Below, one piece after another: positions 1 to 36,616 of a DNA stretch of 37,728 nucleotides (positions are counted from its first letter, which is position 1; every line of letters begins with the position of its first letter). The notes beneath the pieces are model-generated. The model made no database searches, was not told where the DNA came from, and saw only the letters and a list, made by a program, of their open reading frames with translations. The stretch comes from Alphaproteobacteria bacterium PA4 (lineage in GTDB: Bacteria; Pseudomonadota; Alphaproteobacteria; Sphingomonadales; Sphingomonadaceae), in the NCBI GenBank assembly GCA_002256005.1, contig NKIQ01000027.1, forward strand, positions 1 to 37,728, in the 5' to 3' direction. The translations under genes were made by a program, and so were the position numbers.

Positions 1-1
1 C

Positions 2-1624
2 CCTGGCCACATCACCCTGGCCCAAATGCGCCAGTTGCACACCACGCCCACCCAAGTGGCCCTCGACCCTGCCGCCCTGCCCGGCATTGCTGCTAGCGCG
101 GCCCTGGTGCTAAAGGCCGCGCAAGGAGGCGACGCTGTGTACGGTGTCAACACTGGCTTTGGCAAGCTGGCCAACCAGCGCATTGCGCAGGCCGACCTGG
201 AAACCCTGCAACTGAACCTGCTGCGCTCGCACGCCGTGGGCGTGGGCGAGCCCATGGCCGCGCCCGTGGTGCGCCTGATTCTGCTGACCAAGGCGGCCAG
301 CCTGGCGCGCGGTTACTCCGGCATTCGCCAGGTCGTCATCGACCGCCTGTTTGCGTTTTACAACTTGGGGCTAACGCCCGTCATCCCCTGCCAAGGCTCG
401 GTCGGCGCATCGGGTGATTTGGCGCCCTTGTCCCACTTGTGCCTGCCTTTGATTGGCGAAGGCGAAGTGTTCTTCCAAGGCACGCGCATGCCCGCCGCCC
501 AGGCTTTGCAGCAAGCCGGTCTGGAGGCTATTCGCCTGTCGGCCAAAGAAGGCCTGGCGCTGATCAATGGCACGCAGGTGTCCACCGCGCTGGCCATCCA
601 CGCATTGCTGGGCACCGAGCGTTTGTTTGAAGCGGCGGTGATTGCCGGTGCCGTAACACTGGACGCCGCCCGCGGCAGCGATGGCCCGTTTGATGCGCGC
701 ATCCACGCAGTGCGCGGCCAGCCCGGCCAGATCGATTGCGCAGCAGCCTACCGCGGCCTGACCGCCGGAAGCGAAATTCGCCTGTCGCATCTGGAGGGCG
801 ACGACCGCGTGCAAGACCCCTACTGCTTGCGCTGCCAGCCCCAGGTCATGGGCGCATGCCTGGACCAGATGCGCTACGCCACCCAGGTGCTGGTGCGCGA
901 AGCCAATGCGGTGACCGACAACCCCCTCGTTTTTGCGTCCTCACGCGCAGATGGCTTTTCCAGTGACACCGTGGAACCGGCTTTGCCGGGCCACTGGAGT
1001 CGCCCCCTTGAGTGGGAGGTGGCCACCGGCCACTTCGGGGGGGAGCTTGTTTCAGGTGGCAACTTCCACGCCGAGCCCGTGGCCTTGGTGGCCGACGCAT
1101 TGGCCGTGGTGATTGCCGAGATTGGCGCCATCAGCGAGCGTCGCGTGGCCATGCTGGTGGATACCGTGGTGTCGCGCTTGCCCGCGTTTTTGACGCCCGA
1201 GCCCGGCCTCAATTCCGGCTTCATGATCGTGCACGTGACGGCCGCCGCGCTGGCGTCCGAAAACAAATCGCTGGCCCACCCCGCCAGCGTGGACAGCCTG
1301 CCCACGTCGGCCAACCAGGAAGACCATGTGAGCATGGCGACCTTTGCCGCCCGGCGCCTGCAGAACATGCTGCGCAACACCGAATACATCATCGCCATCG
1401 AACTGCTCGCCGCGGCGCAGGGCATTGAATTTTTGCGTCCCTTGAAAAGCTCCAACGTGCTCGAGGGCGTGCTGCAACTGGTGCGTTCGGTATCTGCGGC
1501 CATGATGCAGGACCGCAGCCTGGCCCCCGACATGGAGGCGGTGCGCGATCTGATTGCGCAAGGCCAGGTGGCGCTGGCGGGAGAGTCACAGGTCGCGGCC
1601 TTGTCCGCCTTGCGATTGGCATAG
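2..1624 (+). CDS. hutH: Histidine ammonia-lyase, 5'-truncated
   Basis: Converts L-histidine to trans-urocanate and ammonia, the first step of histidine degradation, in the cytosol. The Ala-Ser-Gly triad that cyclises to the MIO electrophile is at 407-415, inside [11 protein letters not shown]. Other family blocks are [11 protein letters not shown] near the N-terminus, SGGNFHAEP, and [17 protein letters not shown]. The frame is open to the window edge and reads PGHITLAQ before the first in-window ATG at 26. Family members have about ten residues there, so the true start probably lies upstream and the gene is partial. About 35 extra residues sit between DNPLVFA and SGGNFHAEP (about 937-1050) compared with the usual form of about 510 residues. 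No other hut gene is in the window; the next gene is convergent. Base composition is less GC-rich than the DNA beyond 3.7 kb. The identification is firm; the start is uncertain. Confidence 0.95.
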
Positions 1625-1635
1625 CCCCCTTCCCA

Positions 1636-3597
1636 TCAGCTGGCGGCACAGACCCTGTTACGCCCTTCCTGCTTGGCTCGGTACAGTGCGCCATCCGCCC
1701 GGGCTACCAAGTCCTGGGGCCTTTTGTCGTCAGTCGGCAGGCAGCTCGCCACACCGAGGCTTAGCGTGATCACCGGTAGGACCGGGGAGGCAGGGTGCGT
1801 GATCGCCAAGGCCTGACACGCCTTGCGCAAGGCTTCTGCCAAAGTCAAAGCCGCCTCGGAGCCGGCGCCCGGCACCAGCACAACAAACTCCTCACCTCCA
1901 TAGCGCGCGGCCAGATCGCCGGCACGCCCCACCGCCTGCAGAAAGACCGCGGCCACCGCAGCTAGGCACCGATCGCCCTCGGGGTGGCCCAGCATGTCGT
2001 TGTAAAGCTTGAAGCCGTCGATGTCGGCAATGATGACGGCCAATGGCGTTTGGGCGCGGCTGGCGCGCCGCCATTCAGCCTCCAGCGCCTCGTCAAACCG
2101 GCGGCGATTGGCAAGGCCCGTCAGCGCATCCACATAGGACAAGCGGGAGAGGTGTTCATTGGCCAGGCGCAACTCTTCCGTGCGCTGGGCCACCAGGCTC
2201 TCCATCTGCAAGTGCCGTGCACGCAGGTGGTGGGTCCGCAAGCGGTACAACGCCACGACACCGGCCAGTGACGCCAATACCACCAAGGCCGTGAACCACG
2301 CGGTTTGGTAAAAATAGGGGCGCACGGTGATGGGCAAGGCTTTTTCTGCTTCGCTCCAGACCTTTCCATCGACGGACGCTGCAACTCTGAACAGGTATTT
2401 GCCATGGGGCAAGGCGGGGAAGGATGCCTCCCGGCTTTGGCCTGCGTCCACCCAGCCGTGCATCATGCCGTCCATCTGGTAGCGAAAACGCACCCGGTCC
2501 GCGTTTTGCAGGGTCATCGCCGTATAGCGTATGGACAGCGGCACCGATCCGGGCGGCAGCACGATACCGTGGTCTTCTGCGGGCGTGCTGACGCCATCCA
2601 CCACTGCGTTTTCGAGCCGCACCGCAGGCGGCTTCCCTGTGCGGGGAAGTCGCTGCGGGTCCACGATGACGAGACCATTGGCCGATGGCAGCCATAAATG
2701 CCCTTGTGCATCCTTGGCGCTGGCAGGCTGCAAACCGCCCGCAAAAGTAGTACCACGCAGCGCGTCGCCGGGACCATAGCCGGTGGACTGGAGCTTGGTG
2801 ATCTGGCCCTGCGCAAAAGCGTTCAACTCAGCGCGTGCCACTTTGTAGAAGCCACGGTTGCAGGTCATCCAGAGGTCGCCATTTTCATCCTCCAGGATGC
2901 TGAGCGACATTCCATCCCACAAGCCATCAGCAGGCCTAAATGCCACCAAGCGGTCGTCCTTCAGCCGGTTCATGCCTTCGCCATTGGTCCCGACCCAGAG
3001 GGTGGCATCTGCGTCCTCGTACAGCGCCATGACCCAGTTGGACACGAGACCGTCCGCTTTGGTGAGCGTAGTGAAGTTGCCACTGCGGTAACGCACCAGT
3101 CCGTCACCGGTGGTGCCAAACCAGAGTGTGCCCTGCCTGTCTTCCAGAATGGCTGCTACGCCCTCCCTGGGCGCCCCTGGTTCACGCACCGCCACAAAAC
3201 TTCGGCCATTAAAGCGGGCAAGACCCGACTGTGTACCCGCCCACAGTGTGCCGCTGCGGTCTTCAAATAGCACCCGCACTTCGACATTGGGCAAGCCCTG
3301 GGCCAGGCCGAAGCTTTCCAAGCGCCCCTGGTCCAGGCGCACCACCCCTGCCGTATAGGTTCCAATCCAAAGTGCCCCCGACCTATCTTCGTGGAGACTC
3401 GAAATCTCGTCGGTGGGCAAGCCGTGTTTGCGCGTCCAGCGCGTGATGTGCCCTGCTTCGATCCGGTCCACCCCTCCGCCTGCGGTGGACACCCAAGTCA
3501 CGCCATTGCGCCCATGCAATACAGCACGTGTGTTGTCATGGGAGAGCCCCTCCGGAGTACCCAGCACCACAAAGCTGCGGTCACGCAAGCGGTTGAG
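1636..3597 (-). CDS. Beta-propeller sensor diguanylate cyclase, 5' end lost at the junction
   Basis: Predicted membrane enzyme making cyclic di-GMP from two GTP in response to a periplasmic signal. In order from the broken N-terminus come repeated two-component-regulator propeller blades (recurring LWxGT-type motifs such as GALWIGT, GTLWAGT and TLWVGTNG), a Y_Y_Y-type immunoglobulin-like domain, one membrane helix (FTALVVLASLAGVVALY), a short coiled linker, and a GGDEF domain. The active-site loop is GGEEF (about 1885-1899), and an RAGD inhibitory I-site lies just upstream of it, so the enzyme should be active and product-inhibited. Complete proteins of this architecture usually have a signal peptide and more blades, often about 1000 residues. 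Here the reading frame runs into a C-rich tract, so an apparent ATG near 3627 encodes only tract sequence and is not a believable start. The stop lies 11 bases from the hutH stop; the two genes converge. Confidence 0.85.
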   Translation of the reverse strand, partial: LNRLRDRSFVVLGTPEGLSHDNTRAVLHGRNGVTWVSTAGGGVDRIEAGHITRWTRKHGLPTDEISSLHEDRSGALWIGTYTAGVVRLDQGRLESFGLAQGLPNVEVRVLFEDRSGTLWAGTQSGLARFNGRSFVAVREPGAPREGVAAILEDRQGTLWFGTTGDGLVRYRSGNFTTLTKADGLVSNWVMALYEDADATLWVGTNGEGMNRLKDDRLVAFRPADGLWDGMSLSILEDENGDLWMTCNRGFYKVARAELNAFAQGQITKLQSTGYGPGDALRGTTFAGGLQPASAKDAQGHLWLPSANGLVIVDPQRLPRTGKPPAVRLENAVVDGVSTPAEDHGIVLPPGSVPLSIRYTAMTLQNADRVRFRYQMDGMMHGWVDAGQSREASFPALPHGKYLFRVAASVDGKVWSEAEKALPITVRPYFYQTAWFTALVVLASLAGVVALYRLRTHHLRARHLQMESLVAQRTEELRLANEHLSRLSYVDALTGLANRRRFDEALEAEWRRASRAQTPLAVIIADIDGFKLYNDMLGHPEGDRCLAAVAAVFLQAVGRAGDLAARYGGEEFVVLVPGAGSEAALTLAEALRKACQALAITHPASPVLPVITLSLGVASCLPTDDKRPQDLVARADGALYRAKQEGRNRVCAAS

Positions 3598-3665
3598 CCC
3601 CCCCCCCCCCGGAACCCCCCACACCATGCCCGCGCGGGCCCCCCGCCCCCCCCCGCCGGAGGCTC
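3598..3665. other. Low-complexity C-rich junction between two unrelated genomes
   Basis: This stretch holds a run of 13 C (3598-3610), a run of 6 C (3615-3620), another of 6 (3639-3644) and one of 9 (3646-3654). To its left is betaproteobacterium-like DNA and a sensor gene cut in mid-propeller. To its right is alphaproteobacterial DNA. The right end reads CCGCCGGAGGCTCTC, which matches the outer edge of the dispersed palindromic repeat found elsewhere only in the right-hand part. The simplest reading is that a degraded or miscalled repeat copy was used to join two contigs. Confidence 0.8.
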
Positions 3666-3673
3666 TCTTTTGC

Positions 3674-5776
3674 TTAAAACTTCGTCCGCAGCGTCAGCCG
3701 CGCCGCGCGTGGCCCGCCGGTGGTGATGTTGTTGTCGGTATGGGCGGTGGGGAAATAGCCGGTGTTGAACAGATTTTCGATGTTGATCTGGGCGTCGATG
3801 CCCTTGGTCAGTGACGCATAGAGGCCGGCATCGACGCGGGTATAGGCCGGCAGGCGCACGGCGTTGCTGATGGTTGTGAAGCTGCTGGCCTGGTGGACGA
3901 TGCCGGCCGAAAAGCCGAAGCGATCGCTGACATCATAGCGGCTCCACAGCGACGCCTGGGTGTGCGGCACCAGTGGGACCTTGCGGCCGGCGGGGGCGGC
4001 GGTGGTGGTCGAACGGATCTCGGCATCCTGCACGGCAAAGCCGGCGCTGACCTGCCAGCGCTTGCTGATCTGGCCATTGGCGGCGAGTTCCAGGCCCTGG
4101 CTGCGCTGTTCGCCGGTCAGCACGATGGTGCCCGGCGTCGGGCCGGCGGCGCGGGTGTTGTCGCGGGTCAGGCGATAGACGGCGGCGGTCAGGTTCAGCA
4201 TGGGCAGCACGTCCCATTTGCCGCCGACCTCGTAATTCTCGAACTTTTCGGGCGCCAGCGCGGCGGTCGTCGCGTCGAGGCTGCTGAACTGGTCGCCCGA
4301 TTGCGGCAGATAGGAGCGGCTGTAGCTGGCATAGAGCGAGGCGCTGGCGACGGGCTTGAGGATCAGGCCGACACGCGGTGACCAGAGCGAATCGGTGCGC
4401 TGGAAGCGGCTGCCGTCGAGAAGGTTGGTGAAATCTAGCGAGAAACGGTCGTGGCGCAGGCCGGCGACGATCTCGACATGCTCGCCGATGGCGATCTGGT
4501 CCTGCACGAACGCCGCGGCGATATCGGCGCGGGTGCGATAATCGCGGGTGCCGGTGCTGCCGGGGCGGAAGATCGGCAGCGGCGCGCTGAACGGATCGGC
4601 GAGCGGCACGGTCGCCCGCACCGTATCGGCGGTGGCGCTGAAATAGCCCTGCAACCGCTGGCCGCGCGTCGTCTGGCGGCCGAGCTCGATGCCGGCCAGC
4701 ACGGTATGGCCGATGCCGCCGGTTTTCACCTTCCACACCAGATCGGTCTGGCTGATGAGGTTCTGGCGCTGCACCGCGTCGGAATAGGCCTCCACCCCGA
4801 ACTGGCCGTTGCTGACGGCGGTGGCCGGGTAGAGGTTGCGATAGAGCTTGTCATAATCGCCATAGCGGGCGCGCTGGCGCAGCGTCAGCGTATCGGTCAG
4901 CGCATAATCGGCGGACAGGCTGGCGATATCGGCGTTGAACAGCGCGCGGTTGACATCGGCGCGGCCGAAGAAGGTGTCGCGATAGCCGGTCAACGGCGCG
5001 CCATTCAGCGACGGCACACCGCGATCGACGACGCGATTGTCATCGGCATGTTCATAGCCGATGACGAGATTGCCCTTGCCGCCGAGATCGAACCCCAAAG
5101 TCGGGTTCACCGCCCAGCGCTGCAAGTCATAGATCTGGCGGTGGTTGGCGCCATCCTCATAGACCGCGTTCAGCCGGGCATTGACGCCGGCGGCGACCGG
5201 CTGGTTGATGTCGGCGCCCAGCCGCCAGGCGCCGAATGTGTCGACCGCGGCATCGCCGGCGATGAAGCCGGTGGCGCGCGGCAGTTTCGACACGCGGTTG
5301 ATGACACCGCCACCACCGCCGCGGCCGAAAATCATGGCATTGGGACCCTTCAGGATCTCCAGCTGCTCGATGTTGTAGAAATCGCGGTAGAATTGCACAT
5401 CGTCGCGCAGGCCATCGACGAAGAAATCCGCCGTGCTGTTGTTGCCGCGCAGCACGATCTGGTCGCGATGCCCCTCGCCCTGACCGAAGGCGGCGCCGGG
5501 CACATAGCGCAGCGCATCGGCGATGCTGAGCAGCGCCTGATCGTCCAGCCGTTCCCGCGACAGCACCGTCACCGATTGCGGCACGTCGAGCAGCGGCGTG
5601 TCGGTGCGCATCGCGCTGCTGTTGCTGTGGACGATATAGCCCTGGTCGCGCGTGCCGGTGACGACGATGACATCGGCGGTATCGGCGGCGGCATCCGTCA
5701 CCTCCTCCGCCCGGACGGCGCTGCCCAGTGCCATGGCGGTGGCGAGCAGCAGGGCGGAACGGGTGGTGGTACGCAT
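3674..5776 (-). CDS. TonB-dependent siderophore receptor
   Basis: Outer-membrane receptor that imports ferric siderophores using TonB/ExbBD energy. The 700-residue product starts with a signal peptide (MRTTTRSALLLATAMALGSA, cut near AVRAEE). Next comes a TonB box-like VIVVTGTR, then a plug domain (about residues 50-165) with the family signatures LLDVPQSVTVLSRE, IVLRGNNSTADFFVDGLRDD and LEILKGPNAMIFGRGGGGGVIN, then a 22-strand-type barrel ending in phenylalanine (LTLRTKF). Length and motifs fit the FhuE/Fiu-like siderophore group. I chose the ATG at 5776 because it begins the signal peptide; the in-frame start 15 bases upstream would put residues before it. A Fur-box-like palindrome lies just upstream, supporting iron repression. 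The 3' end lies about ten bases from the junction, and no siderophore synthesis genes are nearby. The ligand cannot be told from sequence. Confidence 0.93.
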   Translation of the reverse strand: MRTTTRSALLLATAMALGSAVRAEEVTDAAADTADVIVVTGTRDQGYIVHSNSSAMRTDTPLLDVPQSVTVLSRERLDDQALLSIADALRYVPGAAFGQGEGHRDQIVLRGNNSTADFFVDGLRDDVQFYRDFYNIEQLEILKGPNAMIFGRGGGGGVINRVSKLPRATGFIAGDAAVDTFGAWRLGADINQPVAAGVNARLNAVYEDGANHRQIYDLQRWAVNPTLGFDLGGKGNLVIGYEHADDNRVVDRGVPSLNGAPLTGYRDTFFGRADVNRALFNADIASLSADYALTDTLTLRQRARYGDYDKLYRNLYPATAVSNGQFGVEAYSDAVQRQNLISQTDLVWKVKTGGIGHTVLAGIELGRQTTRGQRLQGYFSATADTVRATVPLADPFSAPLPIFRPGSTGTRDYRTRADIAAAFVQDQIAIGEHVEIVAGLRHDRFSLDFTNLLDGSRFQRTDSLWSPRVGLILKPVASASLYASYSRSYLPQSGDQFSSLDATTAALAPEKFENYEVGGKWDVLPMLNLTAAVYRLTRDNTRAAGPTPGTIVLTGEQRSQGLELAANGQISKRWQVSAGFAVQDAEIRSTTTAAPAGRKVPLVPHTQASLWSRYDVSDRFGFSAGIVHQASSFTTISNAVRLPAYTRVDAGLYASLTKGIDAQINIENLFNTGYFPTAHTDNNITTGGPRAARLTLRTKF

Positions 5777-5824: not shown

Positions 5825-5866
5825 CGCAGAACTGTCAACTGCGGAGATTGCGTAAGGAAAAGATTG

Positions 5867-5986
5867 CCGCCGGCGGCTGGGGCCGTAGGCCCCAGACCCC
5901 AGTTGTTTGATTTCAAGCGTTTGTGTCGAAGTGTGGGACGATCAATCGAATGGGGTCTGGGGCCGATGGCCCCAGCCGCCGGAGGC
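5867..5986. repeat. Paired palindromic repeat, copy A
   Basis: Two 32-base arms face each other: left 5870-5901 and right 5951-5982, reverse complements except within the 3-base loop. A 49-base spacer separates them. Each arm also contains its own small hairpin, GGGGCC-N3-GGCCCC, so the element can fold as two small hairpins or one long one. It lies 4 bases past the stop of the MFS gene and upstream of the receptor promoter, so it could act as the MFS 3' terminator or transcript stabiliser. It belongs to the same family as the copies near 12.8, 29.5 and 36.5 kb. Confidence 0.85.
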
Positions 5987-5990
5987 CATT

Positions 5991-12685: not shown

Positions 12686-12763
12686 GGCGTGCCCCCCTGA
12701 TTGTCGGATAAAGTGGCACGCAGCGTGCCATGCGGCAAGGCGTTGTTGGCGGAGAAGAAAGCG

Positions 12764-12887
12764 GCCTCCGGCGGCTGGGGCCTTGGCCCCAGACCCCAAT
12801 CGACTTTGCGTCGAAGAAACATATGGTTGCGACCGAGCCGAGCCAACAAATGGGGTCTGGGGCCTGAGGCCCCAGCCGCCGGAGGCC
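12764..12887. repeat. Paired palindromic repeat, copy B
   Basis: Left arm core 12768-12798, right arm 12851-12887. Outer edges read GGCCTCCGGCGGC and GCCGCCGGAGGCC, inner edges AGACCCCA and TGGGGTCT. Each arm has its own GGGGCC/GGCCCC hairpin. The roughly 50-base spacer shares only short words with copy A, such as GCGTCGAAG against GTGTCGAAG. It begins 26 bases past the helicase stop and ends about 80 bases before the POT start, so it separates two same-strand genes. Confidence 0.85.
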
Positions 12888-12913
12888 CCTCAAAACCTCA
12901 ATATCGATAAAGC

Positions 12914-29453: not shown

Positions 29454-29505
29454 GCGCGGTGGCGGCGACCGGGCCGGGATGACGCCCAAGCAGAAGGATG
29501 CAGGG

Positions 29506-29626
29506 CCGCCGGCGGCTGGGGTCGCAGACCCCAGACCCCAATCGATTCTGCCGCAGGAAACCTCGCGTTGCCCATGGGCCGCGCCAACGGCTGGGGTCTG
29601 GGGCCAAGGCCCCAGCCGCCGGAGGC
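29506..29626. repeat. Paired palindromic repeat, copy C
   Basis: Left arm 29509-29540 (CCGGCGGCTGGGG through AGACCCCA), right arm 29592-29622 plus GGAGGCC at the outer edge. The left arm's small hairpin is damaged (GGGGTCGCAGACCCC instead of GGGGCC-N3-GGCCCC). The 51-base spacer is different again. It lies between the convergent GH92 gene and amidohydrolase gene, about 50 and 36 bases from their stops, so it could serve as a bidirectional 3' end. Confidence 0.85.
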
Positions 29627-29661
29627 CCTTCCCATGGAAACAAAGTCCATGACGCCGGGAT

Positions 29662-36480: not shown

Positions 36481-36616
36481 GCCTCCGGCGTCCCGGATCG
36501 GAGTCCGGGATGACGGGGCTGTTGGCCTCAGACCCCGATTGTTGGGGGCGGTCCTCCGTCACCTTGGGCAATCCATGATGGGGGTCTGGGGCCTCAGGCC
36601 CCGGCCGCCGGAGGCC
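36481..36616. repeat. Paired palindromic repeat, copy D, with a second palindrome in its left arm
   Basis: The right arm (36580-36616, GGGGTCTGGGGCC-TCA-GGCCCC.. to GCCGCCGGAGGCC) is intact. The left arm starts normally (GCCTCCGGCG, 36481-36490), is interrupted by a different palindrome, then resumes as GGGGCTGTTGGCCTCAGACCCC (36515-36535, in two blocks) with several changes. The copy starts 7 bases past the ABC ATPase stop and ends 12 bases before the permease ATG. The outer GGAGG (36610-36614) is the only Shine-Dalgarno-like sequence ahead of the permease. Confidence 0.75.
36491..36510. repeat. Nested short palindrome TCCCGGA-N6-TCCGGGA
   Basis: A 7-base perfect inverted repeat with a 6-base loop, followed by TGACG. 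It resembles a short dispersed palindrome I recall as widespread in alphaproteobacterial genomes (CATCCCGGACT...GATCCGGGA type). It sits exactly where the left arm of repeat copy D is broken, so it may have inserted there. Confidence 0.55.

Follow-up and report, generated by a model that had tools for sequence, protein, structure and literature searches.

A very probable artificial join between Comamonadaceae-like and sphingomonad DNA at a GC-rich inverted repeat

We conclude from the sequence that positions 1 to ~3638 of the window are, with little room for doubt, a Comamonadaceae-like betaproteobacterial fragment artificially fused to a sphingomonad contig that starts at ~3638. The window, the whole 37,728-nucleotide stretch of DNA that was analysed, is contig C52 of a genome (G000) of 2,997,121 bases in 53 contigs, with a completeness of 96.41 and a contamination of 0.01. 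A preliminary description of this DNA had proposed a chimera of betaproteobacterial and alphaproteobacterial DNA, and that proposal is borne out by lines of evidence that agree with each other: the relatives of the left-hand genes, a repeat inside hutH, tetranucleotide composition, bases resembling errors on either side of the join, and a neighbour for the right part on another contig, C50.

Only two genes were identified in positions 1-3637, hutH and a sensor gene, and the opposite border of this left part lies outside the contig. The histidine ammonia-lyase gene hutH (2-1624, plus strand; Pfam PF00221, E 1e-183) is on the foreign, betaproteobacterial side, and its start is lost at the edge of the contig. 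The DNA sequences that match hutH best all fall in one family (f48), with 77-84% identity in G403 and 81% in G817 and G526, and a hutH match was found in one of 23 congeners of the sphingomonad (57% amino acid identity over the best piece). Among 398 genomes sampled from the phylum, 199 match the left part as DNA, several of them members of the sphingomonad's own family. As to the donor species, none of 399 f48 genomes matches the left part above 84% (best match 81-84%, among matches at E 1e-100). A plasmid search with the whole left part was no help in naming the donor, since it returned hutH in many genera.

More specific is a dispersed, Comamonadaceae-type repeat that lies in frame inside hutH (955-1050, plus strand) and recurs at 14 further places in G403. 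It matches four of 72,556 plasmid records, three from Variovorax and one from Diaphorobacter (both Comamonadaceae), with no annotated feature beneath the match in any of the four, and it is found nowhere else in G000. Since the plasmid records with the repeat are all from Variovorax or Diaphorobacter and it is absent from the rest of G000, the left part is classed as Comamonadaceae-like. In the hutH product the repeat makes an in-frame insertion of ~32 residues (~955-1050) directly before the conserved SGGNFHAEP stretch, and an insertion of such length at that spot is seen in none of 17 other aligned HutH genes.

The second left-hand gene (1636-3637, minus strand), also on the foreign side, encodes the C-terminal two thirds of a propeller/Y_Y_Y/GGDEF sensor, a diguanylate cyclase (Pfam Reg_prop, Y_Y_Y and GGDEF). 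It had been described as cut, and indeed ~310 N-terminal residues are missing when compared with full-length relatives, the cut falling in mid-domain. The window protein begins ~310 residues into a 971-residue relative that is 67% identical and lies on a contig labelled as a Vicinamibacteria MAG, so that the type of sensor alone is no proof of a betaproteobacterium. Full-length matches occur in 13 of 299 f48 genomes (58-74% amino acid identity, open frames of ~980-1,430 codons), and at E 1e-60 the sensor was found in none of 40 relatives of G000. Twelve of the 13 genomes with the full-length sensor also list a hutH match, on a different contig or over 900 kb away, and hutH is absent from all 11 f48 sensor loci (16-17 kb) and from locus L002. 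The idea of a known betaproteobacterial hutH-sensor gene pair was dropped, as the two were never found side by side. Because hutH and the sensor are never adjacent in the 11 f48 sensor loci, no natural neighbourhood could be matched to the left piece, which may contain a second join.

A difference in composition between the left part and the rest had been claimed as well. This holds for tetranucleotides, which set the two parts clearly apart, and is weak for GC (0.62-0.66 in the left part versus 0.63-0.75 elsewhere). The tetranucleotide correlation between the left and right parts is r 0.786, compared with r 0.974-0.989 for nine equal-sized right-hand pieces, each compared with the remainder of the right part, and r 0.987 for the 9.7-kb end of C50. 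The left part is also not close to the f48 loci (r 0.761-0.913), as would be expected of distant relatives. An Rfam search of the window at the gathering threshold gave no matches.

The boundary itself contains C runs of 13, 6, 6 and 9, exactly as first described, at 3598-3610, 3615-3620, 3639-3644 and 3646-3654. Runs of at least 9 C on either strand occur at eight places in the 2,997,121 bases of the genome; two of these are in the boundary and one forms the extreme end of contig C30. The 13-C run is the longest in the genome, the next longest being 10, and because shuffling the window base by base produced such a run only 4 times in 200, a long C run is unusual in itself. We read the C runs as the corrupted ends of both genomes, with the crossover at ~3636-3640, because the sensor can be traced to 3637 and the repeat of the right part to 3636, both ungapped. 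The corrupted sensor end (3598-3637), which holds the 13-C run and the first 6-C run, aligns without a gap between 3598 and 3640 to 12 relatives (the 11 f48 loci and L002); the blastn match of the sensor reaches 3636-3637 in five of the 12 and stops at 3537-3608 in the other seven. The second 6-C run and the 9-C run fall in a corrupted REP-like repeat unit of the sphingomonad (3636-3662, minus strand), and the overlap of the sensor and repeat alignments puts the probable crossover point at 3636-3640.

Both edges of the join are enriched in error-like bases. Where all 12 relatives share one base, the window departs from them in 6 of 21 columns within 3598-3637, compared with 19 of 395 within 2300-3597 (Fisher p 7e-4); in looser columns (9 of the 12 relatives) the contrast shrinks, with 11 of 35 versus 146 of 862 differing. 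Reading the repeat side from 3662 down to 3636, four of 24 fixed positions are altered, in each case to G on the minus strand. Sixteen other repeat units carry 0-3 changes, a biased comparison in that the pattern allowed at most three. The right edge of the boundary had been taken for a fragment of the repeat family found in the right part; it is a damaged unit of that family. All six boundary changes in the invariant columns are A/C or G/T swaps, whereas such swaps make up 7 of the 19 changes within the gene body (post hoc p 0.015), and in view of these swaps plain two-colour poly-G tailing is not favoured. On the repeat side, however, three of the four changes are C to G, so that the signature is mixed. 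That the C runs are meaningless filler is ruled out, as both sides align through them without gaps.

The first gene of the sphingomonad side encodes a TonB-dependent receptor (3674-5776, minus strand; Pfam Plug and TonB_dep_Rec). Matches to it of 62-69% amino acid identity were found in 12 of the 23 congeners, a number that includes two seen as partial hits only. Because, within the plasmid collection, the named relatives closest to it belong to Sphingobium and Sphingomonas (55-57% amino acid identity), 'sphingomonad' is a fair label for the right part. The preliminary description would have counted a related sphingomonad genome with hutH and the sensor gene in this same place as evidence against a chimera; all 12 receptor-bearing congeners lack hutH, with none near the receptor in any of the 12 loci, and a search at E 1e-60 did not find the sensor in any of them.

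Instead, eight of the 12 congener loci have a GNAT acetyltransferase gene downstream of the receptor, direct and convergent in seven and 6.7 kb away in one, followed by an APH-like gene and an acyl-CoA dehydrogenase gene in those loci whose contig extends far enough. In the remaining four, one contig ends inside the receptor gene and three have other neighbours; these three of 11 informative loci count against the link between C50 and the receptor. When the cluster of G004 was used as a query against G000, one strong match was obtained (C50:35499-38746, 78% DNA identity) along with five weak ones. The ACAD-APH-GNAT cluster of G000 is thus near the end of C50, and C50 (39,714 bases) breaks off 19 bases into the repeat unit. 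From gene order in relatives and the shared multi-copy repeat, on which this adjacency rests, we infer that the sequence expected to the left of the sphingomonad part lies at the end of C50. Between the GNAT gene and the end of C50 there is one further gene (L099 8813-9670), which we take from its sequence to resemble a polysaccharide deacetylase; it has no match at E 1e-5 in the 12 congener loci plus L028, which likewise speaks against the link between C50 and the receptor. Overall, the window has parts from different lineages, as a chimeric contig does, and the right part has its likely true continuation elsewhere, on C50, as gene order in relatives indicates; a true continuation of the left part was not found.

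The end of C50 and the start of the right part both fall in one and the same repeat, oriented as in an intact inverted pair of units at 5866-5990 (DNA fold -53.9 kcal/mol, z -11.4). This pair serves as a model of what probably fills the gap between C50 and C52. REP-like units are also present at 12763-12890, 29504-29630 and 36588-36615, and three of the four places are inverted pairs with units ~30-80 bases apart. The sphingomonad units are short, dispersed, GC-rich and palindromic, often form inverted pairs and lie at several contig breaks, in all of which they resemble REP/BIME elements, and we presume the repeat to be a REP/BIME-type intergenic palindrome by name; in this comparison the repeat is the place of the break and not the finding itself. 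A unit lies at most 80 bases from the end in 8 of 104 readable contig ends, where at most ~3.4 would be expected from the density in the window. Elsewhere in the assembly, the end of C30 (L183 361-400) overlaps the end of C43 (L196), the two contigs having been left unmerged, and the last bases of C30 deteriorate into a C9 run, with three substitutions relative to the C43 overlap, immediately ahead of a GC-rich inverted repeat recognised by eye. Further repeat-like sequences common to other contig ends of G000 (L102-L206) were noted by eye, for example GGGTGGCCGGGCGGGGGAGCGGG and TCTGGCAAATGAGCGAGCGCTCTGCC.

Taken together, the join is very probably an ordinary artefact that tells nothing of real gene neighbours, and its place is very probably a hard-to-sequence DNA hairpin. 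The C50 genes and the TonB receptor gene would be separated by a GC-rich pair of inverted repeat units that folds into a strong hairpin, and reads through it would be few and rich in miscalls. The sphingomonad assembly would then have broken at the palindrome, and the contig would have run on, across an overlap of poor quality or by way of a chimeric read, into sequence from a different organism in the same sample. The data would be Illumina reads of a mixed sample, and the false link could have come from either the library or the assembler. For Illumina sequencing of amplified DNA, one study describes coverage that is low at G tracts and GGC motifs and, with two of three amplification kits, drops as inverted repeats increase, and it reports chimeras arising at inverted repeats (PMC4060946). 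According to another, A/C and G/T swaps are the commonest Illumina substitutions, and the folding of inverted repeats is accepted as a possible cause of error clusters (PMC3334598). Chimeric contigs in metagenome-assembled genomes are defined in the GUNC paper, which gives misassembly as rarer than mis-binning and marker-gene estimates as less sensitive to contamination by chimeric contigs (PMC8201837). The window is like the contigs described there in that lineages are mixed in one contig with a marker-based contamination of only 0.01, and unlike them in that the join lies in a GC-rich palindrome and both edges are legible as corrupted sequence (PMC8201837).

Real horizontal transfer, in which DNA of betaproteobacterial origin integrated into the repeat pair that separates the C50 genes from the TonB receptor gene and the C runs are either true sequence or a local sequencing fault, is very unlikely. 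In its favour, the end of C50 and the start of the right part in the same repeat would also fit an insertion there, and a foreign composition fits a recent transfer equally well; beyond these two features nothing supports insertion at the repeat. The sensor, however, is cut in mid-domain exactly where the C-ward errors start, and the ungapped decay on both sides resembles miscalls, not mutation. Moreover, the only two genes identified in the left part, whose other border lies outside the contig, are not mobility genes, and the congeners, in none of which hutH lies at the receptor, do not share the left-hand genes at this place as close relatives might after an acquisition. We likewise give little credence to a real join in which a Comamonadaceae-like piece was inserted at the inverted repeat pair, cutting the sensor gene and leaving a C-rich, substitution-laden scar. 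Least credible of all is a left part that is native to the sphingomonad lineage and merely divergent, the C runs alone being local error: hutH is common in the order, where 12 of 16 genomes from other families have a match, but these matches (mostly 52-62% amino acid identity over the listed pieces) are far weaker than the 77-84% DNA identity in f48, the 40 relatives give no close sensor match, and the repeat within hutH is absent from the rest of the genome.

An artificial fusion of the two parts has consequences for how such genomes are used. The marker-based contamination value of 0.01 gives no hint of the chimera. A usable signature of joins of this kind would be long C or G runs that align ungapped to relatives on both sides, at a site that is a GC-rich palindrome which also breaks other contigs of the assembly. 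The preliminary description had advised distrust of any link between hutH or the sensor gene and the rest of the window. The analysis agrees with this: users of this genome should not credit hutH and the sensor to this sphingomonad.
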